A DNA stretch of 64,000 nt, taken from positions 1,550,001-1,614,000 of the forward strand of contig NZ_CP073754.1 in the NCBI RefSeq assembly GCF_018734325.1, read 5' to 3'. A program made the position numbers and the translations under genes. The notes beneath the pieces were generated by a model. The model searched no databases. It was not told the origin of the DNA and worked only from the letters and a program-made list of their open reading frames with translations. The DNA comes from Methylomonas paludis (GTDB lineage Bacteria > Pseudomonadota > Gammaproteobacteria > Methylococcales > Methylomonadaceae). The number at the start of each line of letters is the position of its first letter. Position 1 is the first letter of the stretch. Below, one piece after another: positions 29,731 to 64,000 of the stretch.

Positions 29731-30492
29731 ATGCAACACGGGAAAATCCTATTGACTGCCACTATGCTGTTGAGCCTCAACAGCCTAAATGCCCAAGCTA
29801 ATTTATACATCACTGGCGGCGGCCTAGGGGTTTACGACAGCGGCATCAATGCCACCTGGACTCGAGATGCCAACCTGTTAGGCAGTTGGGAAGGCGCTTA
29901 TCAATCCACCAGTTACAATAATATCGTCACTGCGATCATCAATGCCAGTAGTGGGGTAATCCATGATACCCCCAATGGTTTCGATCCTACCGGCACTTAC
30001 ACCCTGACTGCCGCTGATTTTGGCAGTGGTGGCACGGTAGACTGGTGGGCTGGTCTGGCGTTTGTCAATTACCTGGATACCCAGCATTATGCCGGCTCAA
30101 GTCAATGGGCTTTACCCTCGACTCCAGATACGGTTCCATCATATGGTTACAACCAAACCGACAGTCAACTAGGTGAGCTGTTTTACAACGAATTAGGTGG
30201 CACAGCATCCAATCCCATTCCCTCTGGTCCGTTCAGCAATGTGCAATCCCTTGCGTACTGGTCTGGTACGGAGTTTACGGCCAATCCTTCCCTGGCACCT
30301 ACTCCTTACCTGGCATGGAACTTCCTTAGCTACAATGGCTTCCAGGATATCAACTTTAAGAACGCCCAGTTTTCGGTATGGGCAGTCAGCCCCGGCAGCA
30401 TTGCCGCCGTACCGGAAGCCAATATAATCTACTTGTTTGGCACCGGCTTGTTAGGTTTGCTTGGCTTAAAACGACGCGGCACCATTAAGTAA
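29731..30492 (+). CDS. Secreted DUF1566-like protein with PEP-CTERM-type sorting signal
   Basis: A 253-residue exported protein. Signal peptide MQHGKILLTATMLLSLNSLN-AQA is followed by an Lcl/DUF1566-like domain (DANLLGSWEGAY; TVDWWAGLAFVNYLDTQHYA; WALPSTPDT; SLAYWSGTEF; FSVWAVSPG), an architecture seen in many surface proteins. The C-terminus has VPEA, a hydrophobic helix (YLFGTGLLGLLGL) and a basic KRR end, the tripartite PEP-CTERM signal recognised by exosortase. It should thus be cleaved and anchored or released at the cell surface. Binding partner unknown. Good ribosome site (AAGGAA) 9 bp before the ATG. Confidence 0.85.
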   Translation: MQHGKILLTATMLLSLNSLNAQANLYITGGGLGVYDSGINATWTRDANLLGSWEGAYQSTSYNNIVTAIINASSGVIHDTPNGFDPTGTYTLTAADFGSGGTVDWWAGLAFVNYLDTQHYAGSSQWALPSTPDTVPSYGYNQTDSQLGELFYNELGGTASNPIPSGPFSNVQSLAYWSGTEFTANPSLAPTPYLAWNFLSYNGFQDINFKNAQFSVWAVSPGSIAAVPEANIIYLFGTGLLGLLGLKRRGTIK

Positions 30493-46078: not shown

Positions 46079-46672
46079 CCCCACCATCAAACTCAAAATT
46101 GTGGTTAATCCCTGCTTAACGGCAATCCATCCCAAATCATTGGTGCAACAGCCCAGTAGGATGTGGTGAGGCACGAACCGCATCATAAAACCTCGTTCCC
46201 CACCATCAAACTCAAAATTATGGTTAATCCCTGTTTAACCGGATTCCATCCCACACCCCCGGTGCAACAGCCCAGTAGGATGTGGTGAGGCACGAACCGC
46301 ATCATAAAACCTCGTTCCCCGCCATCAAACTCAAAATTATGGTTAATCCCTGCTTAACGGCAATCCATCCCGCATCATTGGTGCAACAGCCCCGTAGGAT
46401 GTGGTGAGGCACGAACCGCATCATAAAACCTCGTTCCCCACCATCAATCTCAAAATTATGGTTAATCCCTGTTTAACCGGATTCCATCCCACATCCCCGG
46501 TGCAGCAGCCCAGTAGGATGTGGTGAGGCACGAACCGCATCATAAAGCCTCGTTCCCCGCCATCAAACTCAAAATTGTGGTTAATCCCTGTTTAACCGGA
46601 TTCCATCCCACATCCCTAGTGCAACAGCCCAGTAGGATGTGGTGAGGCACGAACCGCATCATAAAGCCTTAT
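46079..46672. repeat. Five tandem 119-bp units joining a RAYT 3' fragment to a REP
   Basis: GTAGGATGTGGTGAGG occurs at 46156, 46275, 46394, 46513 and 46632, a period of exactly 119 bp. Each unit has three parts. First, ATCAAACTCAAAATT.TGG, matching the last bases of the RAYT gene at 46681. Then GGTTAATCC.TGTTTAAC and GGATTCCA, matching an internal RAYT segment at 46783-46808. Finally a REP of family D with arms GATGTGGT/ACCGCATC. The two RAYT pieces are joined at a shared GGTTAA, as if 85 bp had been deleted. Copies differ by only a few bases. Confidence 0.9.
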
Positions 46673-47202
46673 TCGCCGAAATCAATCTCAAAATTGTGGT
46701 TAAGATTACACCAATTCTCTGGATAAAATCCGGCATTAACAAAGCGCTGAAAACTGGAATATGGCCAATCGGCGGCATTTTTGGTTAATCCATGTTTAAC
46801 GGGATTCCAATGAATATAATCAAGATGCGCATATAAATCATTTTCATCGCGAATCAGGTGATCCCAAAACCGTCTTTGCCAAATCCCGCGTTCGCCACGT
46901 TTATTTCGACTGCTCGATAGACTCTCACCTTTTGCGATACCTCTGGAAAAATCAGCTTTTATTAAACCCCATCGGGTAGAAAAATCGCTATCGCCTTCTG
47001 GTAAGGATAATATGCAATGTAAATGATCAGGCAAAACCACAATGGCGATAATTTTAAATGGATGATCTTTACGAACTTTGATGAAAGATCCCCGTAAATT
47101 TTCAATGTGATCCAATAATAATTGATGGCCTTTCCGCTTTGCCAAATTGACCGTAAAAAACCAAGTTGAGCCGGGTATATAAATTCTTCGGTAATCAGTC
47201 AT
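46669..47202 (-). CDS. REP-associated tyrosine transposase (RAYT), intact
   Basis: A 177-residue Y1 HUH transposase related to the IS200/IS605 enzymes that are thought to spread REP sequences. The metal site is H60/H62 in VLPDHLHCILSLPEGD, the nucleophile Tyr129 in LDYIHWNPVKHGL; WFFTVNLAKRKGHQLL, RWGLIKADFSRGI, GIWQRRFWDHLIRDENDLY and WPYSSFQRFVNAGFYP are family blocks. GTAG-headed REPs of one family lie on both sides: five tandem units starting at its 3' end and one at 47329, fitting the known RAYT-REP association. It splits dhaK from dhaL. Confidence 0.93.
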   Translation of the reverse strand: MTDYRRIYIPGSTWFFTVNLAKRKGHQLLLDHIENLRGSFIKVRKDHPFKIIAIVVLPDHLHCILSLPEGDSDFSTRWGLIKADFSRGIAKGESLSSSRNKRGERGIWQRRFWDHLIRDENDLYAHLDYIHWNPVKHGLTKNAADWPYSSFQRFVNAGFYPENWCNLNHNFEIDFGE

Positions 47203-48170: not shown

Positions 48171-48713
48171 TTATTCCGCGCTGTCCGCTTCGCTGGATGT
48201 ATTGCTGAGCTGGTATTTGACGCGCAGATAATCTTCCAGCCATTCGCTGGTATTGGCCTGTTTGCAGGCAGCGGCTTCCTGCGTTTGCATCAGGCGTTGA
48301 CGTACAGCGTGGTGGGGTAACAATAATAATTCGATATCAGACATGGCCACAAATTTATCCGGCGTGGTGTTTTTGCCGTTGAAAATTTTGAATAACTGAT
48401 TCTTTTTTAAACCTAAATTGATATTCAGCTCTTCGCGGAACTCCAAAAACAGCGGGAGCAGATCGCTACCCGCACAAGTGTCATCCAGCAATTTACTCAG
48501 CCTGTGCATCATATGAAACACAGCAAATCGATACAGTTCCGACTCGCGAACAAATAACCGGGCAGCAGTGGAGCGCACCGCCAGCCGATCGGTATTGTTT
48601 AGTCGCATCGAGACTATGTGTTTTTTATCGTTTAAAAATAGATCGTTATCGTTCAATGCAGGTTCCATTTGATTGCAGCAGCAATACATCTGGCGGTTAA
48701 ACCGCCATGCCAT
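48171..48713 (-). CDS. Hypothetical protein, possible DNA-binding regulator
   Basis: A 180-residue protein without a family I recognise. HIVSMRLNNTDRLAVRSTAA and LFVRESELYRFAVFHMMHRL read like a ribbon-helix-helix or similar small DNA-binding fold, and the rest is helical with an acidic end (NTSSEADSAE). The N-terminus is uncertain: MAWRFNRQMYCCCNQ may be untranslated and MEPALNDNDLF at 48668 the real start. It lies 104 bp upstream of dhaL on the same strand and could be cotranscribed with it. On its other side is the long non-coding region with near-palindromes at 48800 and 48967. Confidence 0.6.
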   Translation of the reverse strand: MAWRFNRQMYCCCNQMEPALNDNDLFLNDKKHIVSMRLNNTDRLAVRSTAARLFVRESELYRFAVFHMMHRLSKLLDDTCAGSDLLPLFLEFREELNINLGLKKNQLFKIFNGKNTTPDKFVAMSDIELLLLPHHAVRQRLMQTQEAAACKQANTSEWLEDYLRVKYQLSNTSSEADSAE

Positions 48714-48799
48714 CCGCTAATCGTAAAACATTAATGTTACAGATTTATAACAAAACCATGTCAAACCCGGCCAAGACCATACCAAACGCGGCGTTATTT

Positions 48800-48984
48800 G
48801 TATTACACATGTAATACGAAATTAGCGAATGTCATTGTCATGTAACGGAATTTTCTTAATAACTCAGCATAATCAACTACAACAAAGTGCTTTGCTCACA
48901 AGCAAGTTTTTAACTGAATTGACGCGACTGCTTACCGATAAGCAGCAGGCAGGCATAAACGCCTAGGTAATACATGTGTATTAC
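48800..48984. promoter_or_regulatory. Two 18-bp near-palindromes 167 bp apart
   Basis: GTATTACACATGTAATAC (48800-48817) and GTAATACATGTGTATTAC (48967-48984) are each self-complementary except at the centre and are built from the same blocks. They lie in the non-coding region between the 48171 gene (-) and the GGA-rich RNA candidate (+). Operators for a dimeric regulator are the simplest explanation. Confidence 0.5.
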
Positions 48985-49069
48985 ATTTCTGCAGACTGTC
49001 ATATACGTGTCACGAAAAAAAAACATTTAGTTTGGATAATTCCAAAAGTATTGCGGCGTTATGGCCGAG

Positions 49070-49420
49070 ATTTGGATACAGGGAACGGCAGGGACAGACC
49101 TCAGGGATGGCAGACGCAGGACGGCGTCAGGGAACTTAAGGAGCAGGGAAGAGATGCCTGGATAGGGCAAGGGAATTAAGCGGCAGGGATGCCGGGCGCC
49201 AGGATGACGCATGGACATACAGGGAACAGGGACGGCACGCACAGGGATAAAGCAAGGGAAGATGTTAGGGAGTCAGTTGGATATATGCTCACTATGGTAG
49301 CGGGGGATGTGGACACCTCTAATGGTGATCAGTGATAAGCGGTCAAAACCTGCAGCTATTTGGACAGGGAATGTTGTTTGAGGATAGCCATAACAATGGT
49401 TTTGAGCTTGTATTTTTTAA
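49070..49420 (+). ncRNA. Candidate CsrA/RsmA-binding RNA (GGA-rich)
   Basis: No protein gene is convincing here. About 19 GGA motifs, most as CAGGGA or AAGGGA, occur between 49074 and 49281, with more at 49305, 49311, 49362, 49368 and 49382. Several lie in hairpin loops on the plus strand: GACGC-AGGACG-GCGTC (49113-49128), TGCC-TGGATAG-GGCA (49155-49169) and CGGCA-GGGA-TGCCG (49181-49194). Many loop-exposed GGA motifs are the hallmark of CsrB/RsmZ-type RNAs that sequester CsrA. A GGATAAT at 49034 could be the -10 box. A T-rich end (TATTTTTT near 49411) follows a weak CCATAACAATGG hairpin. The stretch could instead be the leader of the gene at 49459. Confidence 0.5.
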
Positions 49421-49458
49421 TAACGTAGTACTTTTTTTTAATACTCGGAGAGTAATAT

Positions 49459-50214
49459 ATGAACTTTTCTAAATCTTTGTTGGCTGTTGCCATTCTGGCT
49501 ACTGCCGGCTCTGCGCAAGCAACACTGTTGAATGACGGTGATGCTTATTTGCAAGTCTATGATGCAACCAATGCACAAACTTATGACCTGAATCTGGCTG
49601 CAGTTGCTGGTTTGACTTTGGCTTCTCTGAAAACAGATACAACTATTATCACTGTCGATTTGAGCCAAGATTCTACCTGGAACGCTTTTAAAGCAACTCT
49701 GGATACTGGCAATGCTGTTTGGGGTGTAGGCGATTCTACCAAAACTGATTACCAAGCCACTACTACTGGCACTGGTGCAATCATTCCGACTGGAACTCTG
49801 TATAGCTCTGCAGCTTTCGGTGTTGAACTGTTAGAAGGTCGTGTTAACTCTAGCTTGGCTACATCTAACAGCGTTGTGGTAGCTGATGCTGTTGCTGACC
49901 AAGGTGGCTGGGCAATTGCACCAGGTTCATCATCTACATTCGCCAACCTGTTTGCTGGTATTCCTTCAGCTAATGCCGGTATTGCTTTCGGCGCTACCGG
50001 TAACTTCTACGATATTACTGGTACTACAACTGGTTCAGGTATCCACAAAACCTTTACCGAGCACAACAACGATCTGGGTACCTTTAGCCTGAGCGGCAAC
50101 ACCCTGACCTTTACACCTGTTGCTGCTTCTGCTGTACCAGTACCAGCTGCAGTGTGGATGTTCGGCACAGGCCTGCTGGGTCTGCTGGGTCTGAACCGTC
50201 GTAAAGCGGTTTAA
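49459..50214 (+). CDS. Secreted protein with VPXPA/PEP-CTERM sorting signal
   Basis: A 251-residue exported protein: signal peptide MNFSKSLLAVAILATAGSAQA, a Thr/Ser/Gly-rich beta-type body (VDLSQDSTWNAFKATLDTGN; WAIAPGSSSTFANLFAGIPS), and a C-terminal VPVPAAVWMFGTGLLGLLGL followed by NRRK, the exosortase sorting signal. No binding domain is recognised. The codons used (mostly GCT, GGT, GTT, CTG, CGT, AAC) are those of very abundant proteins and differ from the neighbours. A GGAG ribosome site lies 11 bp before the ATG. The next gene, 91 bp downstream, has the same codon style. Confidence 0.85.
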   Translation: MNFSKSLLAVAILATAGSAQATLLNDGDAYLQVYDATNAQTYDLNLAAVAGLTLASLKTDTTIITVDLSQDSTWNAFKATLDTGNAVWGVGDSTKTDYQATTTGTGAIIPTGTLYSSAAFGVELLEGRVNSSLATSNSVVVADAVADQGGWAIAPGSSSTFANLFAGIPSANAGIAFGATGNFYDITGTTTGSGIHKTFTEHNNDLGTFSLSGNTLTFTPVAASAVPVPAAVWMFGTGLLGLLGLNRRKAV

Positions 50215-50304: not shown

Positions 50305-51927
50305 ATGAAAAAGCAAATCTTAAGTACAGCGATTCTGGCTGTTCTGGCTTCTGCCAATGCGCAAGCAGCCGCAGTAACCGGTCCAACCATTGATCCAAGC
50401 ACTACCACCACTCTGTATATCGGCGGTGCTTCAGCTCAACGTACCTACATCCAAGAAGCCGTCACCGGTACTGCTGGTTCTGGTGTTACTTTGGCTGCTG
50501 CTGATAAATTGTGTGATACCACCCAACCTATCTACTGGTGGGGCGATAACAACGGTACTAACGCTGCCGGTAAAAACTATGATGCTTGGTATTGCACCAA
50601 ACAACCTAGCAACACTGCTCTGGCCTCTGCCAAAGCTCATCTGCTGATCCACAAACGCAGTGCCGGTGGTTCAGATTTCGGTGTAGCTCCTATCGTCAAC
50701 CCACAAAATGTTGGCTTTTTGAACATCGCCAACTCTAACTGTACTGATAACGGCACTTCTACTGTTGCTGGTATTTCTACCGTTCAGTTACTGTGCAGCT
50801 CTTCTACTCTGGTTAACGCCACTCCTGACCTGGGTGTGTCTGACGTTGATCCAGGTAAATTCGTTGGTTTGAACGTCACTGCAGGCAGCATCAATGGCAC
50901 TCCTTTTTCTGCCATTAAAGCTAGCGACTTGGCTAAAATCACCGTTAAATCAACTTCTACTGTTGTTTTCGGCGAGCAAGTAACTTCTCATTTGTTTAAC
51001 GCACTGCAACAAGCTCAAATCGCAACCGGTTATTTGGCAGCAGGTTGCGCGGGTCAGCACACAGAAGCCTGTTTGCCTAGCCTGTCTTCAGCCACTATCG
51101 CTGCGCTGCACACTGGCGTCGCATACGACTGGGATTTGATCCAAGTTGGCAACACCGGTTTAGGTTTGTATTCCTGGGCTTCTGCTAATGACGCGGCTGA
51201 TGCACCATTTGCCTCTAGTGTTCATATCGTACGCCGTGCCAATGGTTCCGGTACTCAAGCTCAACATGGCATTCATTTCCTGAACTATCCTTGCGATACC
51301 ACTGCTGCCGGCGTAACTTTGCCTGCCAATGATGTTGGTCAAAGCGAAGGCGTTGAAGGTTATGTCATTCATGAAGCTTCTTCTGCCGGTAACGTCAATG
51401 CTTCATTAAAAGCCTTGGATACCGCAACTTCATCTTCCGCTTTGGCTACCGGCACTCATGCTGCTGGTGATTTTACTAGCGGTGTACGTTGGGCTGTGGG
51501 CTTGAACTCCCTGGAGCAAACAACCAATGCCAACTACGAGTTTGTTAAAATTGACGGTGTTGCCCCAACTTTGGCTAACGTAGTTGCCGGCAAATATCAT
51601 GACTGGGCGGAAAATACTTTCCAATACAATAGTGTTGGTGGTCATCCTGTCACTACCGATGTAGCGGCTGTGCGTGATGCCTTGATTGCCAAAGCAGCTC
51701 GTCCAGAAGTGTTAAGCGCTCTGAACACCACTTTGACTCACGCGTTTGGTAACGGTGCTTATCTGGCTACCCCAAGCTTGTACCCAATCACTACCGGTTC
51801 AGCTACTTATAATGCAACCAGTCCTATCAACGTATTCTCTTTGGCACCAAATGGTTCTACAGTTGATAACTGCCGCGTACCTACTCCGTACAACGATGGT
51901 ACCGATGCTCCTTCATTCTCGCTGTAA
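50305..51927 (+). CDS. Abundant secreted protein, possibly periplasmic-binding-protein-like
   Basis: A 540-residue exported protein with signal peptide MKKQILSTAILAVLASANAQA and no C-terminal sorting signal. The start of the mature part (TLYIGGASAQRTYIQEAVTG) and HKRSAGGSDFGVAPIVN hint at a phosphate-binding-protein-like fold, but I do not assign a family. Eight or more cysteines (CDTTQ, WYCTK, NSNCTD, GCAGQHTEACLP, YPCDTT, DNCRVP) suggest disulfides or ligand binding. Codon use is strongly biased toward preferred codons, as in the preceding gene. Two hairpins follow, the second a strong terminator. Surface layer or solute-binding roles are both possible. Confidence 0.75.
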   Translation: MKKQILSTAILAVLASANAQAAAVTGPTIDPSTTTTLYIGGASAQRTYIQEAVTGTAGSGVTLAAADKLCDTTQPIYWWGDNNGTNAAGKNYDAWYCTKQPSNTALASAKAHLLIHKRSAGGSDFGVAPIVNPQNVGFLNIANSNCTDNGTSTVAGISTVQLLCSSSTLVNATPDLGVSDVDPGKFVGLNVTAGSINGTPFSAIKASDLAKITVKSTSTVVFGEQVTSHLFNALQQAQIATGYLAAGCAGQHTEACLPSLSSATIAALHTGVAYDWDLIQVGNTGLGLYSWASANDAADAPFASSVHIVRRANGSGTQAQHGIHFLNYPCDTTAAGVTLPANDVGQSEGVEGYVIHEASSAGNVNASLKALDTATSSSALATGTHAAGDFTSGVRWAVGLNSLEQTTNANYEFVKIDGVAPTLANVVAGKYHDWAENTFQYNSVGGHPVTTDVAAVRDALIAKAARPEVLSALNTTLTHAFGNGAYLATPSLYPITTGSATYNATSPINVFSLAPNGSTVDNCRVPTPYNDGTDAPSFSL

Positions 51928-52242: not shown

Positions 52243-53940
52243 ATGCAGTTACACCGGACTAAACACCTTAGCCCCATCATCTGGCTGGCAGGCACAGCGC
52301 TGTCCTTGGCTTATGCCGAATCAGCCTGGACTCAGACGGTAGCCCCAGAGCAAGTCGAAGTAGCCGTCGATCCAGCCGAGCAGACTACCCGCCAGCAGCA
52401 GGCCGCTAACTCTCAGCCCCAGACTCAGGAACAGCCGCCATCCGGCAGTTTCGATTTATTGGAGTTGCGGATCAAAGGTAATACCGTGCTGGACAAAAAG
52501 CTGCTGGAACGGGTGATTTATCCGTTTCTGGGGCTGAAAAAAACCATAGATGATGTCGAAAAAGCCCGGGCGACCCTGGAAGAGCAATATCGAAGCCTGG
52601 GCTATCAAACCGTAGCAGTGGATATACCGGAACAGGATGTCAAAAACGGCATTGTTTATCTGCAGGTTATGGAAGGCAAGGTCGGTCGCTTACGCGTCAA
52701 AGATTCCCGTTATTTCTCGCTGGGCGCCATCAAGGCCGGGGTGCCGGAATTGGCGGAAGGCAATGTACCTAATCTGCCCAAAATGCAAAAACAGTTGGCC
52801 GATTTGATTGCCCAAAGCCCGGATCGGCAAATTCAGCCGGTGCTGCGCGCCGGTGACACACCCGGCACCCTGGAAGTGGATTTAAAAATCAAAGATGAAA
52901 TGCCCTTGCATGGCCGGGTAGAGTTAAACGGTCGTAATACTTCCACCACCTCACGGCTCAGACTGGTTAACTCCTTACATTACGATAATCTCTGGCAAAA
53001 AATGCACAGTGCTTCAGTGATGTATCAGGTGTCACCGGAAAACAGCGCAGAAGTGGATGTCTGGGCCGGTACTTATGCGATACCTTTATCGGATAGCGGC
53101 TCACGTTTAGCTTTTTACACGGTTTCCTCTTCATCCAGCTCCCAGATTGCCAATGCCGGAGCCTTATCGGTAATTGGTAACGGTAGTATTTACGGCGCCC
53201 GCTATGTCATACCCATGCAGGGCTTGGAAAGTTATTTTCACAGCGCCACCTTAGGTGCCGACTACAAAAGTTTTAAGGAAGATCTGCATCTGCAAAACTC
53301 CAAAGGTATCCTCACGCCTATCGAATATATGCCGTTTCTGGTGCAATACAGCGGCAATTTTCGCGCTAAAGAATATTTCGGCAGCCTGGATTTGGGCTTG
53401 CATTTTGGGGTTTCCGGTCTGGTTAATAATCAAGCCCAGTTTGAAAACAAACGTTATTTATCCAGAGCCGGCTATATGTACCTGACCGGTGATTTTAAAT
53501 ACCAGCATGATTTGCCTTTGGGTATGGAAGTGCGTACCCATTTCTCCGGACAGGCCGCCGATTCGCCTTTGATCAGTAACGAGCAATACTCGCTGGGTGG
53601 CGCAACCACAGTGCGCGGCTATTTTGAAACTCAGGCACTGGCCGATCACGGCGTATTGGGTTCAGTGGAACTGCATTCCCCACATTTGGCCCCGGCCGAT
53701 TGGGAAGCGGTTAACAAGTTGAAAATCCTGGCCTTCCTGGATGCCGGCAAGGGCTGGATGATAAGTCCCTTGGCCGGTAATCCCAAGGGCTACGATTTGA
53801 GCAGCGGCGGGGTGGGCTTGTCCTTCCAGCTCTGGAAACGGCTGATGGGCAATTTTGATGTCGGTATTCCGTTTACCTCTTTGACCGTGGTCAAAAGCGG
53901 CGAACCGCGTCTGCACTTTAGTGTAGCCACCGAATTTTAA
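52243..53940 (+). CDS. TpsB outer-membrane transporter (ShlB/FhaC/HecB family)
   Basis: A 565-residue two-partner-secretion pore that exports the TpsA encoded downstream. A signal peptide (to about residue 30) is followed by a Gln-rich linker and two POTRA domains (FDLLELRIKGNTVLDKKLLE..., residues about 70-145, and GRLRVKDSRYFSLGAIKAGV..., about 150-220). A 16-strand barrel comes next, with the YSLGGATTVRGYFE motif that plugs and gates the pore (L6 loop VRGY) near residue 455, ending in a C-terminal Phe (HFSVATEF) typical of BAM substrates. 194 bp upstream of tpsA, same strand. Confidence 0.94.
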   Translation: MQLHRTKHLSPIIWLAGTALSLAYAESAWTQTVAPEQVEVAVDPAEQTTRQQQAANSQPQTQEQPPSGSFDLLELRIKGNTVLDKKLLERVIYPFLGLKKTIDDVEKARATLEEQYRSLGYQTVAVDIPEQDVKNGIVYLQVMEGKVGRLRVKDSRYFSLGAIKAGVPELAEGNVPNLPKMQKQLADLIAQSPDRQIQPVLRAGDTPGTLEVDLKIKDEMPLHGRVELNGRNTSTTSRLRLVNSLHYDNLWQKMHSASVMYQVSPENSAEVDVWAGTYAIPLSDSGSRLAFYTVSSSSSSQIANAGALSVIGNGSIYGARYVIPMQGLESYFHSATLGADYKSFKEDLHLQNSKGILTPIEYMPFLVQYSGNFRAKEYFGSLDLGLHFGVSGLVNNQAQFENKRYLSRAGYMYLTGDFKYQHDLPLGMEVRTHFSGQAADSPLISNEQYSLGGATTVRGYFETQALADHGVLGSVELHSPHLAPADWEAVNKLKILAFLDAGKGWMISPLAGNPKGYDLSSGGVGLSFQLWKRLMGNFDVGIPFTSLTVVKSGEPRLHFSVATEF

Positions 53941-54042: not shown

Positions 54043-54134
54043 ATTCTAAGCTAGTGATTGTTTATAAAGGATGATGTAGCGTTACGCTGAGTAATTCTTT
54101 AGTTTAAATGTTAAATCTGCAGAAGGCTTTAGTG

Positions 54135-57100
54135 ATGCCCAAAATACCTCAATCTTCAAACCGTAAAGTTTCGGATCAATTTTTCCAATTGAAACCGTTG
54201 GTGGCCGGCATCCGGATTGTGGTGGTGGGTGGTCTGTTTGTTAGTTCACCCACACCGGTACGCGCCGAATTGCCGGTAGCCGGCGCTACCTTGCCGGATG
54301 GTACCGCATTGCCCTGGGTGGGTTACGGCGATGCCAGCAACCATTTGGCTAATAACGGCCATAATTTGGTGATTGATCAGCATTCCGAAAAAGCCATTTT
54401 AAACTGGCAGCATTTTAACGTCGGTAAAGACAATACCGTGCAGTTTGTGCAGCCGGACGGCAGTGCCGTGGCGCTGAACCGGATTTACGATGCCAATGGC
54501 AGCACCATTTTGGGCCATATTACCGCCAACGGTCAGATTTATCTGTATAACCAGAACGGTTTCGTGTTTGAGAAAGGCGCGGTCATCGATGCCAATAGTG
54601 TGGTGGTCAGCACCATGAATGTCAGCGATGATGTGTTCAAGAACAGCAATATAGTCGATGCCTATAACAGCAAAGGTGTGGCGGCTTTTGATCAGGCTAA
54701 TAATGCCGATCCCAGTCAAACGCCCGGCAATGTTAATATTAACAAGGGTGCGCAAATCAAAGCCGCTGACGGTGGCCGCATTATTGTCGCCGGTGCCAAT
54801 GTCCAAAATAACGGTAGCTTGTCTGCCGGGGTGCAAGGCCAGATTTTGCTGGTCGCCAGTCAGGATAAAGTCTATTTACAGGCCAATAATCCGGCTGGCG
54901 GTTCGGCCTGGAACGGCTTATTGGTCGAGGTGGGCACTGGCGGTAAAGTCACTAATGCCGGCGATGTGGCTGTGCGCCAGGGTAATGTCACGCTGGCCGG
55001 TTTTGCCGTCAATCAGGATGGCCGGGTTAATGCCACCACCTCAGTTAATGTCAACGGTTCTATCCGCCTCCAGGCGGCTCAGGGTCTTACCAACGGTACC
55101 AACAAGTCGCTAGATGGTGTGACGACTGCGATTGCGCCGGCTGCCACCATAGACAGTAATAATAAGGCCTCCAGTGTTGAGTTTGGTGCTGGCAGCCAGA
55201 CCCAGATAAATGCCGATAGCGCTGGCGGCTCCTCCCTGGATTCAGCCGTCAAGCCGCAGTCCGCTATTGAGATTGTCAGCAATACTGTGGCGCTGAATGG
55301 CAATGCCGCGATTACTGCGCCGGGTGCCAAGGTCAGCATTACCGCTACTGATGATTTGGTGGATCCGACTCAGGGTCACAGTGGCCGGATTTTTATGGAC
55401 AGCAAAGCCAGTATTGATGTGTCCGGCCTCAAGGATGTGAAAGTGGCCGCCAACCGCAATATCGCCGAAATTTCGGTAGAAAGTTATGAGTTGCGCAATT
55501 CACCCTTACAGTTGACCGGTGTTTTGAAAGGCGCCAACGTCTGGGTGGATACCAGTGTTAATACCAGTATCATCGATACCAGCAAGGCAGCCGCCAATAT
55601 CCAGCGCAGTATCTATGAGCGCATGACCGTCGGCGGTCAGATTGACATGACTTCTAGTGGTGATGTGTTGGTCGATAATAACGCCAAACTGTCGATAACC
55701 GGCGGTTCTGTGGATTATCAGGCCGGTTATGTGCATACCACCAAACTGATTAACGATTTCGGCCAATTGGTGGATATCAGTGCCGCCGATCCCAATCAGC
55801 ATTATGCCGGCATCTATGGTCAGATTACCGAAGCCCATACCAAATGGGGTGTGACCCAAACCTGGAATGTATTTGATCAGGCTGCGCCGGGTACTTATCG
55901 AACCGCCTATACTCAGGGCGCCAATGCCGGTGCGGTGAATATCACTACTTCAGCCTTGTCCTGGAATGGTGAGCTGGCGGCAGGTGCCAACAGTGGAGCC
56001 AATCAGCGCACGCTGGCCAATACCCCCAATGGCGGCAGTTTTAATATTGATTTGGCCACCCTTAATTCTGTACAAAATGTGCAGTTTCAGACTGCCCAAA
56101 ATTTTGTCGATTTTACCCCGACCAGTGCTTTCCCTAAAAACGCCAATACCGGTAAACCAAATGATTTGATATTGGATGCCGGTTTATTGAATGGTTCCGG
56201 CGTGCAAAGCGTCTCAGTTAAAACGACAACTAATGTGCTGGTTACCGCTGATGATAAGATTAATATGCAAGCCGGTGGTCAATTAAGCGTATCGGCCAAT
56301 AATATCAACATCAACGGCAGTATTCATGCTGCCGGGGGTGCGGTTAATTTAACCACGATTACTGGTGATATCACGCTGAGCAAACAAGCGGTAGTTGATG
56401 TGTCCGGGCGCTGGATCAATGATCAGCAGGCGGTATTGCAACAGCCTGGCTTGGTGCCGACAGCACCCTTATATACCCAGGGCGGTTCGGTTAATTTTAA
56501 TGCTTATGATGTGGTTAAACTGCCATCCGGCGCTCAAATTAAAGCCGATGGCGGCGGCTGGGTCTCGGCTGTAGGGGCTTTGACTGGCGGCGCCGGCGGC
56601 AGCATAGATTTGGAAAGTGCCTCGAATAATGGCGGTATCATGCAATTGGCCGGTGGATTATCGGCGTATGGTATGAATCAGGGTGGTACCTTGACTCTGG
56701 GTAGCAATAATATGGTGATCGGCACGGCCGGCACCGGCGATCCCGCCACAGCTTTAGTATTAGGTGTCAGCCACAACAATTTTGATTTTGCCCAGCAACT
56801 GGGATTCAGCACTATCAATTTGAAGGGCAATATTGGTAGTAATACTGGCAATATTAGCGTTAAAAGTGATGCGAAGCTGAATTTAAAAACTGAAAATTTA
56901 TTATTACACAGTAATTTTCACAGCATGGCTACCGGCAGTTCCATCCGTGATTTCAGCAGTGTGGTGTTACTACCGGAAAATCAGCGTCAGGCCGTGAAAC
57001 TGAGTTTAACCGGCGGTGATTCTGCCTTAAATATCGCCCAGGGCAGTTCCATTGTTTTGGATAAAAGCACGCTCAATAATGCCTCTACCCTGAATTTGAC

Positions 57101-60100
57101 CAGCCAGGGCAGTATTTTTGTCGATGGCACTCTAAATGCAGCCGGCGGCCAGATTAATCTGACCATCAATCCCGATATGTCGCTGGCTTATGATCCCACT
57201 CAAGCGGTTTGGTTAGGTCAACACGCCAAACTGCTGGCCACCGGCGATACCCGACTGAATCCGGCTGATGGTTTGGGTCGGCAAACCGGTGTGGTGCTGA
57301 ATGGCGGCGCCATCAATATTAACGTCCAGCGCGGGTATGCGGTGCTGGAAACAGGTTCGCTACTGGATGTATCCGGTACCCATGCTCAAGTGGCCATCCC
57401 CCAGCAGACCGCTACTGGCTATAATGCCGGCACTAATCTCACTGATGTCGGTTCAAATGCCGGTAAAGTTTCGATTACCGCCGCAGAAGGTGCGGTACTG
57501 GATGGCACTTTTAAAGCCTTTGCCGGATCGGCGACTACTCAGGCCGGTAGTTTGACCGTGACTATGAATAATTTTAACCGTAATATAAGTGACACGGCGT
57601 CCATAGCCGACACTTTCTCCTATGGATCCCTCACCATTAATGTTGAACAGGATGCTGGCCGGGTGCTGGCGAATGGAACTGCTTTTGGCAGCAATCTCGA
57701 TCAACTTAATTTGCAAGGTAAGGCCACGCTTAGCACCAACACCATTATGGCCGGCGGTTTTGCCGATGTCAGCTTGGTAGTGCCATCCAATACCTCTACC
57801 TCAACAGGCCAGGTAAATGGACAGGTCAATTTTATCGGTAACGTGGATTTAAATGCGACCGGCCATATCACTATCGATAGCCCGATTATTAATTCGCTGC
57901 CCTTGGCCGGGGAAACCAGCGATACCGTGAAGTTGACCAGTCCATATATTACTCTGGGTTCGTCTACTACCCGCAGTGTCAGCAGCACCGCCACCACCGG
58001 CAACGGTGTGTTTGAGTCTGATGCAATTTGGACCCAACTGCAAGGTGCTTCACAGTGGAACGGCTTTAGCAATATCAGTTTGAATAGCGCTCATGATTTA
58101 AGAACCTTAGGCGTATCACTACTCACTGACCGCGATTTTCTTGGCGAAATGGTCACTGCCGCCACTATTAATCTGCAGGCCAGTCAGATTTATCCCGCCA
58201 CACTGACTGATTTTACCTTTCAAACTACTGGCGCCAACCAGCAAATTAATATCACTGGCAGCAATACCGATACCTCACCCTTGTCAGCTGGCGGCAGTAT
58301 CACCTTCCAGGCCCCGATCATCAATCAAAGCGGCGTGATTAAAGCCCCGCTGGGCACGATTAATCTGCAGGCCAGCCAAAAGCTGACCTTGGGGGCCAAC
58401 AGCCTGACGTCGGTTTCTGCCGCCGGACTAGTGATTCCGTTTGGGGTGGTACAAGGTGGACTGGACTGGTTGTATCCGCTGGATAACGGCCAGAACTTGA
58501 TTATTGCCACGCCACCGACCAAACAAGTTAACTTGAGTGCGCCGGTTATCGACCAGGTCAAAGGCAGTACCGTTGATTTATCCGGTGGTGGGGATTTGCT
58601 CAGTTCCGAATTTAAACCGGTAACCAGCGATTTTCCGGATTTTCTGAAGCCCGGCAGCAGTTCTTACGACGGCAGTTTTGCTGTGATTCCTTCTCTGGGC
58701 TCGGCTTTGGCGCCGTATGATCCGGCTACCATGCTCACTTGGAATAATGCCGCCACCGGTACTGCTTATGCCGAGGGCAGTCAGGTTTATTTGCAGGGCA
58801 GTGCGGACTTGCCGGCTGGACAATATACTATTTTACCGGCGTATTATGCCTTATTGCCCGGTGCTTACCTGATCACGCCGCAAGCCAATTCTCAAGATCG
58901 CAGTGTCACCACCTACAGTACCAGTGGTTTGCCAATAGTCTCCGGTTATGAGACCCTGGCCGGCACTGCGGTTAAGGATGCCCGCACCAGCGCTTTTCAG
59001 GTAGAAACCTCGGCCCAGCTGTTGCTTAACCATCCGCAGTATGATTTGTATTGTGCCGGTAGTTGCAGCACTACGCTGACCAGCCAGGAAACGGCGCTGA
59101 AAGCGGCTAATCAGGGGGTTTTGGCCGCCAATATTGCCTCCGGCCTGGATTATCTGACCAGCAAAACCCTGCTGACCCAAAATTTCTATGCCGCCAAAGC
59201 CAAGACCAATAGCGCAGCCACACCTTTGCTGCCGGTCGATAGCGGCCAGATTACCATCGCCGCTCAACAGGGGCTGACCCTGGATGGCGCTATTAATGTC
59301 GCAGCTCCAGGTGGCCGCGGCGCAAGTATGGATATTGCTGCCGATAATATTGAAGTGGTAAGCAGTTTAAGCGCGACACCGGCCCCCGATACCTTGCAAA
59401 TTCTGGACAGTAACCTGAATAATCTCAAGGTGGATAGTTTATTCCTGGGTGGCACCCGCACCACTAATGAAGATAGCTTTACTTTAATCGCTCCGGCCAG
59501 CTCCGGCAGCACCAGCTTGACCTTGGTCAGTACCGTGGATTGGGCCGTGGGTGATGTGGTTAAAGGCACAGGTATTGCCGATGGTACGGTTATTAATAGT
59601 ATTTCCGGTAATACGGTGACGCTGAGCAAGGCCATTACCACTGATCTCGGCACCGGTACCACCATTACCGATACCAATACCGCCTTGATCAATGGTGCTA
59701 CCAATTTGGCGGTCACTGCCCAGCAGGTGATATTTGATAGTGGCGTCAATTTAAAATTGACCGATCTGGTGGCGGCGGCCACCGATAAAGTGGTGGTCAA
59801 CAGCGGCACCAATTTAACCGCCAGCGGCACTGTTAATACCGGTGAATCCAAGTTCAATTTGCTGGGCGATAGCGCCTTGCTTAGATTGTCTGCCGACCAG
59901 CAGTTGGCGGTGAACCGGGTTTATTACGGCACCACGCCCGGCCAGAGCGGCCAGTTGGCAGTTGATAAAAACGCTACTTTAAGCGCCACCAAATCCATGT
60001 TGCTGGACAGTTCCTTATCGACTCAGGTTGACGGTAATATCGTCATGCATGGCGGTTCGCTGTACCTAAGCGCCGGTAATATCAATATCGGTGATGTCGG

Positions 60101-63100
60101 TAGCGGTGCTGCCCTGCAGAATGCACTGAATTTAAGTAATCAGCAATTAGCCGGCCTGAATGTCGATCAGCTGATTTTAAACAGTCGGGGTAATGTCAGC
60201 TTTTACGGTAATGTCGGCGCAGAAGATAGTAGTGGTAACCAGATACTGGGCAGTGACGGCTCTCAGCTGCCGCTGAATTTTAATCAACTGGTGATTAATG
60301 CCGGCGGTATTTCCGGTTACACCACTAGTTCCACTACGCCTCAAGCTGTTAAGTTCAAAGCCAGCAGCCTGACTCTGGAAAACCTGAACAATGCAGGGGC
60401 TGGCAGTGCAGGAACCGGAAACGGTACCTTGGATTTGACGGCCACTAATTACATTCAAGGACCTGGCAATATGGCTATTAACGGTTTTAATAGCGTTAAT
60501 CTGACTGTAACTAACAGCTTTACTGCCAGTGGTACCAGCAATTTGACGTTGGCCGGCGATACCACACTGACTACCGGCTATCTGACTGCAAATTCCGGTG
60601 CCAAATTAAGCCTGGATGCCAGCGGTCATACCCTGAATGTCAATGGTAACGGTGCCGCGAGTTCAGCAACACCTGCCGGTTTGGGTGGTACCATGAGTTT
60701 TGTCGCCGATAGCGTTGGCTTTAATGCCTATGCTTTATTGCCGTCCGGCAATCTGACTCTGCAGGCTAAAGGCAGCACCGGCAATGTCAGTATCGGTTCG
60801 TCTGCTAATATCGATTTGGCCGGTCGGGCGGTGGCTTATGCCAATACCGTGGACTATACCCCTGGCGGGCAGTTAAGCGCTACGGCTGATCATGGCAATG
60901 TTACTGTAGCGGGTAACGCCAAGGTGGATTTGAGTAGTGGTGGCGGTACGGCAGCCGCCGGTAATTTACTGCTCAATGCAGTTGAACAATCGGTCAGCAT
61001 TGCCGACACTGCTTCTATTAAAGCATCTGGGGGCAGCGCTCAGTTTGATGTGGCCACCTTTAGTAGCGATTCCAGCTTTGATAAATTAATGACGGTGCTG
61101 AAAAACGCCGGTATCAATAATATTATCGATTTCCGGAGCCGCGCTGCCGATATTAATTCCACCACGGATATTAATGCCAAAGCGGTCACCTTGGTCGCGG
61201 ATCATAATAAAATTGAAATCAGTGGCAAAATCAATGCCAATGGTGTTAGCGGTGCTTATCAGACCACGGCCGTCAATGCCGCCAATGTGCTGACTTTGGC
61301 CGATACCCGCGGTCTGCATGTGGGTGATTATTTAAGCGGCCCTGGCTTGGCGGCCAATACCGTGATTACTAAAATATCCGGTAATGATGTCAGCTTGAGT
61401 ACCACACCCAACTCGGCAATTGCGGCTGGAGCTACTATTACCGATATTTCCGCGCTGGGCAATACTCATACCATTACCGGTATTAGTCAAACGGCACCGA
61501 ATTCTTTGACGCTGGATAATACCACTGGCCTGAAGGTTGGCGAATATTTGTTAGGTGCAGGTCTGGCGGCCAATACCACGATCACCGGTATTTCCGGCAA
61601 TACTATCACTTTAAGCTCCCTACCTAGTGCTGATCTCAGCACCGGCACCGCAGTGATTACCGTCGATAGCAGCCGGGTGGGCGATATTAACGGCGGTAGT
61701 ATTAAGCTTTATGCCGGCGACACCATCACTTTGGATAAAGGCAGCAATTTGACCGCCACTAGTGTCTGGGGTAAAGGTGGCGAAGTTTTATTATCCTCAT
61801 TAGCCGCGTCGAGTACCACTGGAGCCATCGTGCTGAATAGTGGCGCTGTGGTCGATGTCAGCGGTGTTAATGCTGCTCAAGGCGGTAGTGTGACCCTGCG
61901 TGCGCTGCAGGATGGCAACAGTATTAATATTCATACTCTGAATGCCACCCTGACCGGCTATACTGCCCTTAATGCCGAAGCGGTCAAGGTGTATACCAAT
62001 GCCGATTTCAATACCAGTCCGGGTGCGGACGGCACGATAGATGCCTCGCTGATTGCCGCGATTCAGGCGGCCACCCAGACTTTTATGGCTAATGCCGATA
62101 TTTCTGCATTGACCGCTCAAAACGCCGCACTTACTTTGCTGCCTGGGGTGGAAATTGATTACACCGGTAATTTGACTCTGGCCGATTTATGGGATTTATC
62201 CACCTGGCGCTATAACGGTAATCCTGGCGATCTGGTGATACGCGCCAGTAATTCCCTGACCTTTAATAACTCGCTGTCCGATGGCTTTACCTCGGGTAAT
62301 TTCATCAATGCCGATGGCTCTAGCGGCACCATGACCGTGACTGACCAGTTAATGCGCGATCAATCCTGGTCGTTTACTTTGTCGGCCGGCGCCGATCTGG
62401 CAAGCGCCGATATTAATCGGGTGTCCGGCACCAGCAATAATGTCACCATCGGTAATGCCGACAATGTAGCAGACGGCGGCGGCCAAATTCAAGTTAGAAC
62501 CGGCACCGGTAATATCCATATCAACGCCGGCGGTGATATCAATATTATGGGCAATGGTACGGTTTATAGTGCCGGCCAGGCTAGCACCTCCAATCCTTAT
62601 GGTCATTTGACCGATAGCCAGGTCAGCAAGTATTTCTTTGTCGAATATCCGATTAATGGCGGTAATCTGGATTTGGCGGCAGGCGGCAATATTAATGGCG
62701 CTTATAGCGGTACCACTTATAACGACTGGTTGCTGCGTATTTGTTGCGACAGTTCGGCCCTGCATAAAAATCCGGCTATTTTTATCCCTACCGCCTGGGG
62801 TGTGGCGCTGGGTTATACAAATTCAAGCAATCAACTGGTTAATAGCAACAATGCCCCGGCTTTTACCCAGAATATCGGTTCTTTTGGTGGTGGTAATGTT
62901 AGTATCAAAGCCTCGGGCAATATTCAAAACTTGGAAGTGGCCATGCCGACCACCGGTAAACCGGTGGGCGCGACCACAACAAAACCAACTTCTGTTCTGG
63001 CCAGTTTTACCAGCAATGTGATTGATATTGAGGGTGGCGGCACTTTACAGGTTAGTGCCGGCGGCGATATTCAGGGCGGCAGTTATTACCTTGGTAAAGG

Positions 63101-64000
63101 CATAGCCGATATTAATGCCGGTGGTGCGGTGACGGTCAGCAGCGCTTGGACCAGTGGCCCGCAGTTATATTCCGGTGATACTCAGTTTAATGTCAATGCC
63201 GTGACTGGTGTGCAACTGGCTGGAGTCGCCGATCCGATGATGAATGGTGTTTCACATCTGCAAGCCAATATCCGTGATTTGCAAAAAGCCGTTAATTTCT
63301 TTAGTTATACTGATGCTAGCGCCTTGTCCCTGCGTTCACTGGCTGGTGATATCATTCTGACAGGTGGTAGCGATTTAGCCAATGTGTTCCCGGCCTCGTT
63401 GCAGGTCAGCGCATTCGGCGGCAGTTTGGTGTTGAACAATAATATCAATTTGTTTCCCTCATCCACCGCTAAGCTGAATGTTTATGCCCAACAGAATATC
63501 ACTTCAGCGAATTCCGTAAATCCGGCAACTTTACGGATGCTGGATTATGCGCCTAATGCCACTGCCGGAGCTTTGCCCACAGCTTATGCCCCAAATCTCG
63601 TCGTCAAAGATATTACCATTCATGCGGTTGATGCATCCAATATGCCGCTGCACATCGATGATTTACTGCCGGCTGTGATTGCCACTCAGTCGGGTGATAT
63701 CCACGATATTGGTTTCAATATACCGAAATTGACTATCATCAAAGCCGGGCGTGACATCAGCAATGCCAATATCAGTATTCAGAATATCCATAACAGCGAT
63801 GTGTCGATTGTCGATGCCGGACGCGATTTGATTTATCCGCTGCAATTATCGCCAAATACCGGCAAAATTATCAGCTTGGGGGTGCCGCCGCAAATTTCGG
63901 TGGCCGGGCCGGGAGATTTACTGTTAAAAGCTGGGCGTAATGTAGACTTGGGCGCGGCGGCCGGGGTGTTTACCATCGGTGATCGCAACGTGTATAACGC
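54135..64000 (+). CDS. TpsA giant filamentous-haemagglutinin-like exoprotein (3' end outside window)
   Basis: The frame is open from ATG 54135 to the window edge: at least 3,288 residues. A long signal peptide (MPKIPQSSNRK to about residue 44, ending TPVRA-E) is followed by the TPS domain that TpsB recognises: DASNHLANNGHNLVIDQHSE, ILNWQHFNVGKDNTVQFVQP and YLYNQNGFVFEKGAVIDANS, where NQNG replaces the usual NPNG. The remainder is a Gly/Asn/Thr/Ala-rich parallel beta-helix with many GG-x-NIN-x-G turns and very few Cys. Three copies of a module of the type VGDYLSGPGLAANTVIT-KISGN occur at residues about 1793, 2383 and 2455. Probable role: adhesin or biofilm matrix protein at the cell surface. 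The whole stretch lacks other plausible genes. Confidence 0.93.
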   Translation, partial: MPKIPQSSNRKVSDQFFQLKPLVAGIRIVVVGGLFVSSPTPVRAELPVAGATLPDGTALPWVGYGDASNHLANNGHNLVIDQHSEKAILNWQHFNVGKDNTVQFVQPDGSAVALNRIYDANGSTILGHITANGQIYLYNQNGFVFEKGAVIDANSVVVSTMNVSDDVFKNSNIVDAYNSKGVAAFDQANNADPSQTPGNVNINKGAQIKAADGGRIIVAGANVQNNGSLSAGVQGQILLVASQDKVYLQANNPAGGSAWNGLLVEVGTGGKVTNAGDVAVRQGNVTLAGFAVNQDGRVNATTSVNVNGSIRLQAAQGLTNGTNKSLDGVTTAIAPAATIDSNNKASSVEFGAGSQTQINADSAGGSSLDSAVKPQSAIEIVSNTVALNGNAAITAPGAKVSITATDDLVDPTQGHSGRIFMDSKASIDVSGLKDVKVAANRNIAEISVESYELRNSPLQLTGVLKGANVWVDTSVNTSIIDTSKAAANIQRSIYERMTVGGQIDMTSSGDVLVDNNAKLSITGGSVDYQAGYVHTTKLINDFGQLVDISAADPNQHYAGIYGQITEAHTKWGVTQTWNVFDQAAPGTYRTAYTQGANAGAVNITTSALSWNGELAAGANSGANQRTLANTPNGGSFNIDLATLNSVQNVQFQTAQNFVDFTPTSAFPKNANTGKPNDLILDAGLLNGSGVQSVSVKTTTNVLVTADDKINMQAGGQLSVSANNININGSIHAAGGAVNLTTITGDITLSKQAVVDVSGRWINDQQAVLQQPGLVPTAPLYTQGGSVNFNAYDVVKLPSGAQIKADGGGWVSAVGALTGGAGGSIDLESASNNGGIMQLAGGLSAYGMNQGGTLTLGSNNMVIGTAGTGDPATALVLGVSHNNFDFAQQLGFSTINLKGNIGSNTGNISVKSDAKLNLKTENLLLHSNFHSMATGSSIRDFSSVVLLPENQRQAVKLSLTGGDSALNIAQGSSIVLDKSTLNNASTLNLTSQGSIFVDGTLNAAGGQINLTINPDMSLAYDPTQAVWLGQHAKLLATGDTRLNPADGLGRQTGVVLNGGAININVQRGYAVLETGSLLDVSGTHAQVAIPQQTATGYNAGTNLTDVGSNAGKVSITAAEGAVLDGTFKAFAGSATTQAGSLTVTMNNFNRNISDTASIADTFSYGSLTINVEQDAGRVLANGTAFGSNLDQLNLQGKATLSTNTIMAGGFADVSLVVPSNTSTSTGQVNGQVNFIGNVDLNATGHITIDSPIINSLPLAGETSDTVKLTSPYITLGSSTTRSVSSTATTGNGVFESDAIWTQLQGASQWNGFSNISLNSAHDLRTLGVSLLTDRDFLGEMVTAATINLQASQIYPATLTDFTFQTTGANQQINITGSNTDTSPLSAGGSITFQAPIINQSGVIKAPLGTINLQASQKLTLGANSLTSVSAAGLVIPFGVVQGGLDWLYPLDNGQNLIIATPPTKQVNLSAPVIDQVKGSTVDLSGGGDLLSSEFKPVTSDFPDFLKPGSSSYDGSFAVIPSLGSALAPYDPATMLTWNNAATGTAYAEGSQVYLQGSADLPAGQYTILPAYYALLPGAYLITPQANSQDRSVTTYSTSGLPIVSGYETLAGTAVKDARTSAFQVETSAQLLLNHPQYDLYCAGSCSTTLTSQETALKAANQGVLAANIASGLDYLTSKTLLTQNFYAAKAKTNSAATPLLPVDSGQITIAAQQGLTLDGAINVAAPGGRGASMDIAADNIEVVSSLSATPAPDTLQILDSNLNNLKVDSLFLGGTRTTNEDSFTLIAPASSGSTSLTLVSTVDWAVGDVVKGTGIADGTVINSISGNTVTLSKAITTDLGTGTTITDTNTALINGATNLAVTAQQVIFDSGVNLKLTDLVAAATDKVVVNSGTNLTASGTVNTGESKFNLLGDSALLRLSADQQLAVNRVYYGTTPGQSGQLAVDKNATLSATKSMLLDSSLSTQVDGNIVMHGGSLYLSAGNINIGDVGSGAALQNALNLSNQQLAGLNVDQLILNSRGNVSFYGNVGAEDSSGNQILGSDGSQLPLNFNQLVINAGGISGYTTSSTTPQAVKFKASSLTLENLNNAGAGSAGTGNGTLDLTATNYIQGPGNMAINGFNSVNLTVTNSFTASGTSNLTLAGDTTLTTGYLTANSGAKLSLDASGHTLNVNGNGAASSATPAGLGGTMSFVADSVGFNAYALLPSGNLTLQAKGSTGNVSIGSSANIDLAGRAVAYANTVDYTPGGQLSATADHGNVTVAGNAKVDLSSGGGTAAAGNLLLNAVEQSVSIADTASIKASGGSAQFDVATFSSDSSFDKLMTVLKNAGINNIIDFRSRAADINSTTDINAKAVTLVADHNKIEISGKINANGVSGAYQTTAVNAANVLTLADTRGLHVGDYLSGPGLAANTVITKISGNDVSLSTTPNSAIAAGATITDISALGNTHTITGISQTAPNSLTLDNTTGLKVGEYLLGAGLAANTTITGISGNTITLSSLPSADLSTGTAVITVDSSRVGDINGGSIKLYAGDTITLDKGSNLTATSVWGKGGEVLLSSLAASSTTGAIVLNSGAVVDVSGVNAAQGGSVTLRALQDGNSINIHTLNATLTGYTALNAEAVKVYTNADFNTSPGADGTIDASLIAAIQAATQTFMANADISALTAQNAALTLLPGVEIDYTGNLTLADLWDLSTWRYNGNPGDLVIRASNSLTFNNSLSDGFTSGNFINADGSSGTMTVTDQLMRDQSWSFTLSAGADLASADINRVSGTSNNVTIGNADNVADGGGQIQVRTGTGNIHINAGGDINIMGNGTVYSAGQASTSNPYGHLTDSQVSKYFFVEYPINGGNLDLAAGGNINGAYSGTTYNDWLLRICCDSSALHKNPAIFIPTAWGVALGYTNSSNQLVNSNNAPAFTQNIGSFGGGNVSIKASGNIQNLEVAMPTTGKPVGATTTKPTSVLASFTSNVIDIEGGGTLQVSAGGDIQGGSYYLGKGIADINAGGAVTVSSAWTSGPQLYSGDTQFNVNAVTGVQLAGVADPMMNGVSHLQANIRDLQKAVNFFSYTDASALSLRSLAGDIILTGGSDLANVFPASLQVSAFGGSLVLNNNINLFPSSTAKLNVYAQQNITSANSVNPATLRMLDYAPNATAGALPTAYAPNLVVKDITIHAVDASNMPLHIDDLLPAVIATQSGDIHDIGFNIPKLTIIKAGRDISNANISIQNIHNSDVSIVDAGRDLIYPLQLSPNTGKIISLGVPPQISVAGPGDLLLKAGRNVDLGAAAGVFTIGDRNVYN

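Follow-up and report, generated by a model that had tools for sequence, protein, structure and literature searches.

A conserved GGA array before a two-partner-secretion adhesin operon in Methylomonas paludis: a probable CsrA-controlled leader, adjoined by a c-di-GMP riboswitch in most relatives examined

Genes and Features of the Locus

The window analysed here comprises 64,000 nucleotides (bases 1550001-1614000 of a 3.67-Mb single-contig genome), and positions are counted from its first letter. On its plus strand, promoter-like elements are followed by a GGA-rich stretch and then by genes for two-partner secretion, as listed below.

48799-48817, plus strand: palindromic box TGTATTACACATGTAATAC, first of two promoter-like modules (repeat search; putative function)
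48967-48985, plus strand: second palindromic box GTAATACATGTGTATTACA (repeat search; similar boxes seen by eye in congeners)
48997-49013, plus strand: direct repeat TGTCAT-N5-TGTCAC, a response-regulator-like box (read from sequence)
49035-49040, plus strand: putative -10 element GATAAT (read from sequence; AATAAT in congeners by eye)
49074-49281, plus strand: GGA array, 19 GGA spaced 7-15 nt apart (motif counts)
49217-49304, plus strand: conserved core with five ANGGA, GGCACG and, at its end, ATGGTAGCGGG (model R1 and alignments A1, A2 and A3)
49314-49327, plus strand: short hairpin CACC-TCTAAT-GGTG between the array and the riboswitch position (by eye, alignment A1)
49335-49411, plus strand: 77-nt hairpin of -20.9 kcal/mol at the place of the relatives' riboswitch, a possible terminator or attenuator
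49448-49451, plus strand: Shine-Dalgarno (SD) sequence GGAG, inside UACUC-GGA-GAGUA (read from sequence)
49459-50214, plus strand: first gene, a 251-aa exported protein with a PEP-CTERM/VPLPA-CTERM-like tail (NCBIfam TIGR03370)
50305-51927, plus strand: 540-aa protein, exported judging from its N-terminus by eye (open reading frame; homologues in relatives)
52243-53940, plus strand: TpsB transporter with POTRA_2 and ShlB domains (Pfam E 1.8e-15 and 2.6e-15)
54108-64000, plus strand: giant TpsA adhesin extending past the window's end (Pfam TPS secretion domain, E 3.7e-22)

The match of TIGR03370 to the 251-aa protein (E 4.1e-4, 20.3 bits) lies below the NCBIfam cut-off of 25.35. For the 540-aa protein, searches of the Pfam and NCBIfam profile sets returned no family; all 18 fetched loci have a homologue of it. 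For TpsB, a homologue is present in 15 of these 18 at 55-73% identity, the exceptions being L069, which is only a 4.7-kb contig, and L059 and L064, which show none within their 20 kb. The TPS secretion domain falls within the first 800 aa of TpsA, whose open frame runs for at least 3297 aa in the window. The GGA within the SD has no A at -2, and the small hairpin around it is not part of the predicted minimum fold.

A divergent gene upstream of the leader (48171-48713) encodes a 180-aa protein that matched no family in the Pfam/NCBIfam search and that, by eye, resembles ribbon-helix-helix proteins. Upstream of this gene, some 37 nt (48719-48755) are matched by blastn at 90-97% identity in 13 of 60 relatives. 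Elsewhere in the window are a REP-associated tyrosine transposase (46669-47202; NF047646, E 5.1e-59) and another exported protein whose tail looks PEP-CTERM-like by eye (29731-30492).

Judging from the putative -10 element, the transcript is expected to start near 49046; a consensus sigma-70 promoter scan found no site in 48650-49480. Congeners have equivalents of the direct-repeat box, e.g. TGTAAC-N5-TGTAAC (by eye, without statistics). Overall, 48799-49040 reads by eye as two tandem promoter-like modules, each a palindrome with TGTCAT/TGTAAC direct repeats, and similar tandem modules can be seen in L054, L062 and L065.

The GGA Array

The preliminary description of this DNA reported about 19 GGA in 210 nt where some three would be expected by chance, and counting bears this out. 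The stretch 49070-49420 contains 24 GGA, and its best 210 nt, starting at 49070, hold 19 against 3.03 expected from the composition of the window; elsewhere in the window, the maximum per 210 nt is 9 on the plus strand and 11 on the minus strand. With 40% G and 30% A, the array stretch is so rich in purines that ~10 GGA would be expected from its composition alone. Compared with 5000 segment shuffles of 49070-49279, the 18 GGA found there equal the shuffle maximum, and the nine CAGGGA and 14 ANGGA lie above their maxima of 3 and 11, respectively. The wording “mostly CAGGGA” was generous, as this form accounts for 10 of the 24 GGA, and the spacing of 8-15 nt given for CAGGGA-type motifs becomes 7-15 nt when measured between GGAs. 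Five of the six ACARGGA cores on the window's plus strand fall in this 414-nt leader. The array is denser here than in 12 congener loci, where 210 nt contain 10-14 GGA, and a search for a tandem repeat within it found none.

CsrA prefers GGA in loops. The preliminary description placed at least three GGAs in short hairpin loops, and three are indeed present (ACGC-AGGACG-GCGT, GCCT-GGATA-GGGC and GGCA-GGGA-TGCC); their number is that of chance, with a mean of 2.77 when only the letters outside the GGAs are shuffled, and with 278 of 500 such shuffles reaching three. Loop enrichment is likewise missing in 18 congener loci: each has 0-2 such GGAs (zero in 10), a number attained by 67 or more of 200 shuffles in every case. 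The stretch 49060-49440 folds no better than its shuffles (z +1.09). A linear, unpaired array is the description that fits best.

Two other candidates were rejected. A leader peptide was considered because a short frame starting at ATGGTAGCGGGG looked conserved; its ATG is lost in genomes G002 and G022, and the frame shifts between species. Closed plus-strand frames of at least 15 codons in 49045-49458 reach 48 codons at most. A G-quadruplex was discarded since it is the A of GGA that stays constant, whereas GGGA changes at its first G.

A Conserved Core in Relatives

Using blastn with 48700-49460, the stretch around 49221-49273 was found in 17 of 60 relatives, among them the 12 whose GGA-rich leaders were counted above. 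A sequence-only model of the core, R1, was built from 17 sequences, one of them the window, whose own core scores 65 bits (E 1.8e-17). R1 matches 29 of 37 Methylomonas genomes with E-values down to 5e-18, at one locus per matched genome except for one genome with two; three of the eight genomes with no match are among the 31 of good quality. Within the family, 33 of 237 genomes are matched, in 4 of 29 genera, and outside Methylomonas the fraction is 4 of 200. The 34 family matches yielded 33 fetched loci, a match at a contig end (G067) being left out. A pattern scan of a genome collection (84,980 species by its description) returned 41 stretches, 20 of which were tested with R1: six match strongly (53.6-65 bits), all from Methylomonas or Methylococcaceae, one Methylovulum contig end reaches 26 bits, and five other records score 15.5-20.3 bits, as expected of stretches chosen by pattern. 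Distant blastn against a plasmid collection gave no match.

The 33 loci were reduced to 24 clusters in alignment A3, with gaps in partial rows set aside; alignment A2 omits L064 and L056, in which the usual 3' end of the core is missing. In A3, the only departure from GGA at the five sites is one A to T, apart from the absence of site 4 in two of the 24 rows and of site 5 in one. The A at -2 is present in 22/24, 24/24, 23/24, 19/23 and 23/23 rows over the five sites, and the N between this A and the GGA takes three or four letters at each site. The core also keeps GGCACG, ATGGTAGCGGG and nearly rigid spacing. Loss of the GGA motifs in relatives was named at the outset as grounds for abandoning the CsrA proposal; instead, five ANGGA are conserved over the 24 clusters. 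The array looks held by selection, because the first protein downstream is only ~28-36% identical between loci over its long alignments. RNAalifold predicted no pairs in alignment A1, and the stems of the short hairpin at 49314-49327 differ between species by eye.

A c-di-GMP Riboswitch in Most Relatives

Of the 33 fetched loci, 30 have a c-di-GMP-I-GGC riboswitch (RF03167) directly between the core and the gene. The E-values of these matches range from 1.2e-11 to 5.9e-6, and the gathering score of 59 is reached by one leader (L096, 59.3 bits), the others scoring 39.4-58.5 bits. Because the riboswitch directly follows the array in these loci, and a reading frame then follows in those whose sequence was inspected, the array can be placed in a 5' leader; the best reading of the GGA cluster is thus that it forms part of the 5' leader of the two-partner-secretion adhesin operon. 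Across the genus, RF03167 has 1-12 matches per genome in 30 of 37 genomes, and 15 genomes have a match over the cut-off.

The array is present and the riboswitch absent in three of the 33 loci, namely the window itself (L073), L081 (G022) and L097 (G019). The window's genome has no RF03167 match at E 0.01, and the Rfam search of the window found none. In a TpsB tree of 16 sequences (without support values and without G019), the window pairs with the riboswitch-bearing G032 and G022 stands apart, so the absences look separate. The absence in the window may reflect a loss.

In the 200 nt upstream of 30 riboswitches from across the genus, 28 have 0-6 GGA and two have nine, namely the R1 locus L036 and the paralogous leader L024. 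The array is therefore a feature of this leader and of a few paralogous ones (L024, L099), not of the riboswitch in general. Three leaders, L024, L099 and L143, are paralogous combinations of array and riboswitch; in L024 and L099, the gene encodes another exported protein, starting with ARWAL/ARWAF. A second c-di-GMP-I-GGC riboswitch stands directly before a TpsA-like gene (N-terminus judged by eye) in L026-L030, L048 and L050, where the preceding 200 nt contain just 0-5 GGA.

In the relatives, the letters after the aptamer's 3' strand, CACCUU, complement the SD (CCUUAUGU with ACAUAAGG). A script detected an SD-pairing helix covering AGG of 6-9 bp in 24 of the 30 loci and of 5 bp in two more; in the four loci where the script had no anchor (L076, L096, L085 and L092), the SD complement is visible by eye. 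Changes on both sides of the helix occur, as in CCTTGTGA with TCATAAGG (L098) and CCTTAA with TTAAGG (L099). As P1 and the SD helix share a strand, a translational ON-switch is the likely arrangement.

The core's GGCACG (A3 columns 19-24) is complementary, by eye, to the P1 strand GCGUGU. This strand reads [CT]GTGT in 28 of the 30 array-linked aptamers (L085 and L092 do not) against 2 of 28 others (L022 and L030), L024 and L036 having been left out of the latter. Against a pairing of the two, most of the linked aptamers are orthologues, the letters could equally stem from the SD helix, and L090/L091 and L085 have an altered GGCACG with no compensating changes. The pairing is kept only as an idea that the letters might allow.

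CsrA as the Probable Binder

The genome contains one csrA. Over residues 1-58, its product closely matches PDB 1y00 (E 2e-29), the E. coli CsrA entered there as “Carbon storage regulator”. The protein holds L4 and R44, which a figure legend names among the RNA-binding residues of CsrA (PMC7652899). The SELEX consensus RUACARGGAUGU, as quoted in the same source (PMC7652899), probably applies here, since the genome's CsrA matches 1y00 and has both residues. CsrA as the likely binder is thus supported by conserved ANGGA motifs with a free N, by the concentration of ACARGGA cores in the leader and by a CsrA with L4/R44, and CsrA would be expected to bind the leader's ANGGA array.

The preliminary description proposed csrA together with a GacA/UvrY homologue as supporting evidence, and this holds in part: csrA is present, and the best GacA/UvrY-like match reaches 214.8 bits, below the curated cut-off of 280, with one stop within the matched stretch. 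The presence of csrA alone does not discriminate between readings. Counting against this reading, GGA in hairpin loops is at chance, eight of the 37 genus genomes have no R1 match, and none of the conserved core's motifs reaches the SD. A site at the SD is not universal in CsrA leaders, flhDC having none (PMC7652899).

Proposed Mechanism and Its Significance

The array, its conservation, the operon, the adjacency or absence of the riboswitch and the SD complement can be read directly from the letters. On this basis, it is fairly probable that the locus is a CsrA-controlled mRNA leader in front of a two-partner-secretion adhesin operon; most of the relatives examined have a c-di-GMP riboswitch next to the array. 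The preliminary description had offered a CsrA-controlled leader as its second choice, and that choice fits an array of conserved ANGGA placed before riboswitch and gene.

In this mechanism, CsrA dimers would bind ANGGA motifs in a linear, mostly unpaired array, and bound CsrA would act on the operon mRNA at the level of translation, stability or elongation, in the way known from the pgaA leader. Whether control would repress or activate cannot be told from sequence. In the relatives, the P1 strand CACCUU would double as the SD-pairing strand, and binding of c-di-GMP, a response predicted from the aptamer's letters, would free the ribosome site and turn translation on. Two lifestyle inputs, CsrA and c-di-GMP, would then meet on one adhesin mRNA. 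In the window, CsrA would be left as the main input to the leader, as the riboswitch is absent, a plain hairpin stands in its place and the array is denser. Titration of CsrA by the leader is a further possibility.

Among controllers of the switch from motile to attached life, CsrA and c-di-GMP are two of the most widespread. Both inputs appear adjacent in one mRNA leader that is conserved across a genus of methane oxidisers, and the three loci that keep the array and have no riboswitch provide a natural series for how two inputs combine. The leader also offers a starting point for work on attachment in a group that matters to industry and climate. A limited literature search found no description of a CsrA array paired with a c-di-GMP riboswitch, for which novelty is not claimed; judging by titles, it found no paper apparently devoted to Csr in methanotrophs or Methylomonas. 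A known link between CsrA and c-di-GMP is that CsrA represses genes making c-di-GMP (PMC7652899).

Alternative Readings

A dual-function or released leader RNA is a possible but rather unlikely alternative. The array would titrate CsrA in trans and derepress the CsrA regulon upon transcription of the adhesin operon; in the window, the hairpin at 49335-49411 and its U-run would end many transcripts, releasing a ~370-nt sponge. A density of 19 GGA per 210 nt is CsrB-like. The 77-nt hairpin ends one base before the U6 of AUUUUUU (49412-49418), and in the riboswitch-less L065 a hairpin of -7.0 kcal/mol directly abuts a U-run. Titration has precedents in the Salmonella fim leader and Campylobacter flaA mRNA (PMC4894983; PMC6844306). 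Several results weigh against a released sponge. A terminator scan of 48650-49480 found none, and the hairpin is long with inner loops. The best tail hairpins in 100 mononucleotide shuffles average -9.7 kcal/mol (sd 7.4), the strongest reaching -23.1 kcal/mol, and the 146-nt stretch with the hairpin folds no better than shuffles (z 0.29). U-runs occur in riboswitch-bearing leaders too, and among the relatives' leaders inspected by eye, a terminator-like end before the gene is seen only in L065 and L097, the hairpin of L097 lying about seven bases before its U-run. The window's leader may nevertheless be attenuated by hairpin and U-run.

An extended form of the proposal is speculative and doubtful. 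In this form, a two-input device, made up of the five-site CsrA array and the c-di-GMP ON-riboswitch, would jointly gate the adhesin operon, with CsrA occupancy shifting the riboswitch fold via GGCACG-P1 (GCGUGU), and riboswitch-less lineages such as the window would be turning into a terminated, CsrB-like sponge of ~370 nt. If true, the window would show an mRNA leader on its way to becoming an sRNA.

Another ligand, or a structured RNA, would explain why the core keeps letters that CsrA does not need, together with its rigid spacing; the 90-nt core could be a purine-rich stretch bound by some other protein, or an unrecognised structured RNA, such as a helper domain for the riboswitch that adjoins it in 30 of 33 loci. 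This is unlikely. A nearly fixed A at -2, a free N and a fixed GGA, five times over, are what CsrA reads, and models of GG tracts (G-quadruplexes) would neither fix the A nor free the N. No pairs are predicted for the core, and the array persists in the three riboswitch-less loci.

The headline of the preliminary description, a sequestering sRNA of the CsrB/RsmZ type, did not hold up, and a classical free-standing sRNA of this kind is very improbable here. GGA density and spacing speak for it, as does a weak alignment to PrrB_RsmZ; the latter scores 13 bits against a cut-off of 44, with E 1.6 on 621 nt. Rfam at gathering score, applied to the whole window, found two tRNAs and no match from the CsrB/RsmZ clan. 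GGAs in hairpin loops occur at chance, the riboswitch directly after the array in 30 of 33 loci marks a leader position in relatives, and a more CsrB-like candidate exists elsewhere in the genome (2.068 Mb).

Chance purine-rich or low-complexity DNA with no function can be dismissed: local composition does predict about half of the GGA count, and this reading is contradicted by motif conservation over 24 clusters with E-values to 5e-18 and by the lack of a tandem repeat.

A Second GGA-Dense Stretch

The second GGA-dense stretch (L157, minus strand, C1 at ~2067.9-2068.4 kb) contains 20 GGA per 200 nt and lies between a gene resembling that of the 540-aa protein and another TpsA gene. Its fold has z -5.41 over 451 nt, including two long perfect hairpins outside the GGA part, and its end is terminator-like. 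The number of its GGAs in loops is within chance, 84 of 500 shuffles reaching it. Searches gave no Rfam family at cut-off and no blastn match in 36 congeners. L157 is a CsrB-like candidate.

Comparison with Known Systems

The array resembles the CsrB/RsmZ sRNAs (Rfam clan CL00106) in GGA density and spacing. It differs from them in that riboswitch and gene follow in most relatives, GGA is not enriched in loops, and the Rfam score is below cut-off. Leaders of surface-structure genes that titrate CsrA are described for Salmonella fimAICDHF and C. jejuni flaA (PMC4894983; PMC6844306); titration by the present leader is only possible. The flaA mRNA probably binds one CsrA dimer (PMC4894983), whereas the Methylomonas leader has many motifs.

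CsrA and a riboswitch share one mRNA leader in E. coli moaA and L. pneumophila thi (PMC7652899; PMC5338858). The CsrA sites described there are within or overlap the Moco or TPP aptamer, whereas in Methylomonas a separate array lies upstream of a c-di-GMP aptamer. The E. coli pgaABCD leader is likewise a multi-site CsrA leader (six sites) before a biofilm-adhesin operon, and c-di-GMP also acts on the product of that operon (PMC7652899). Unlike pgaABCD, the leader studied here precedes a two-partner-secretion adhesin, its ANGGA motifs are more numerous without any shown to lie at the SD, and in relatives the same leader carries a c-di-GMP riboswitch.
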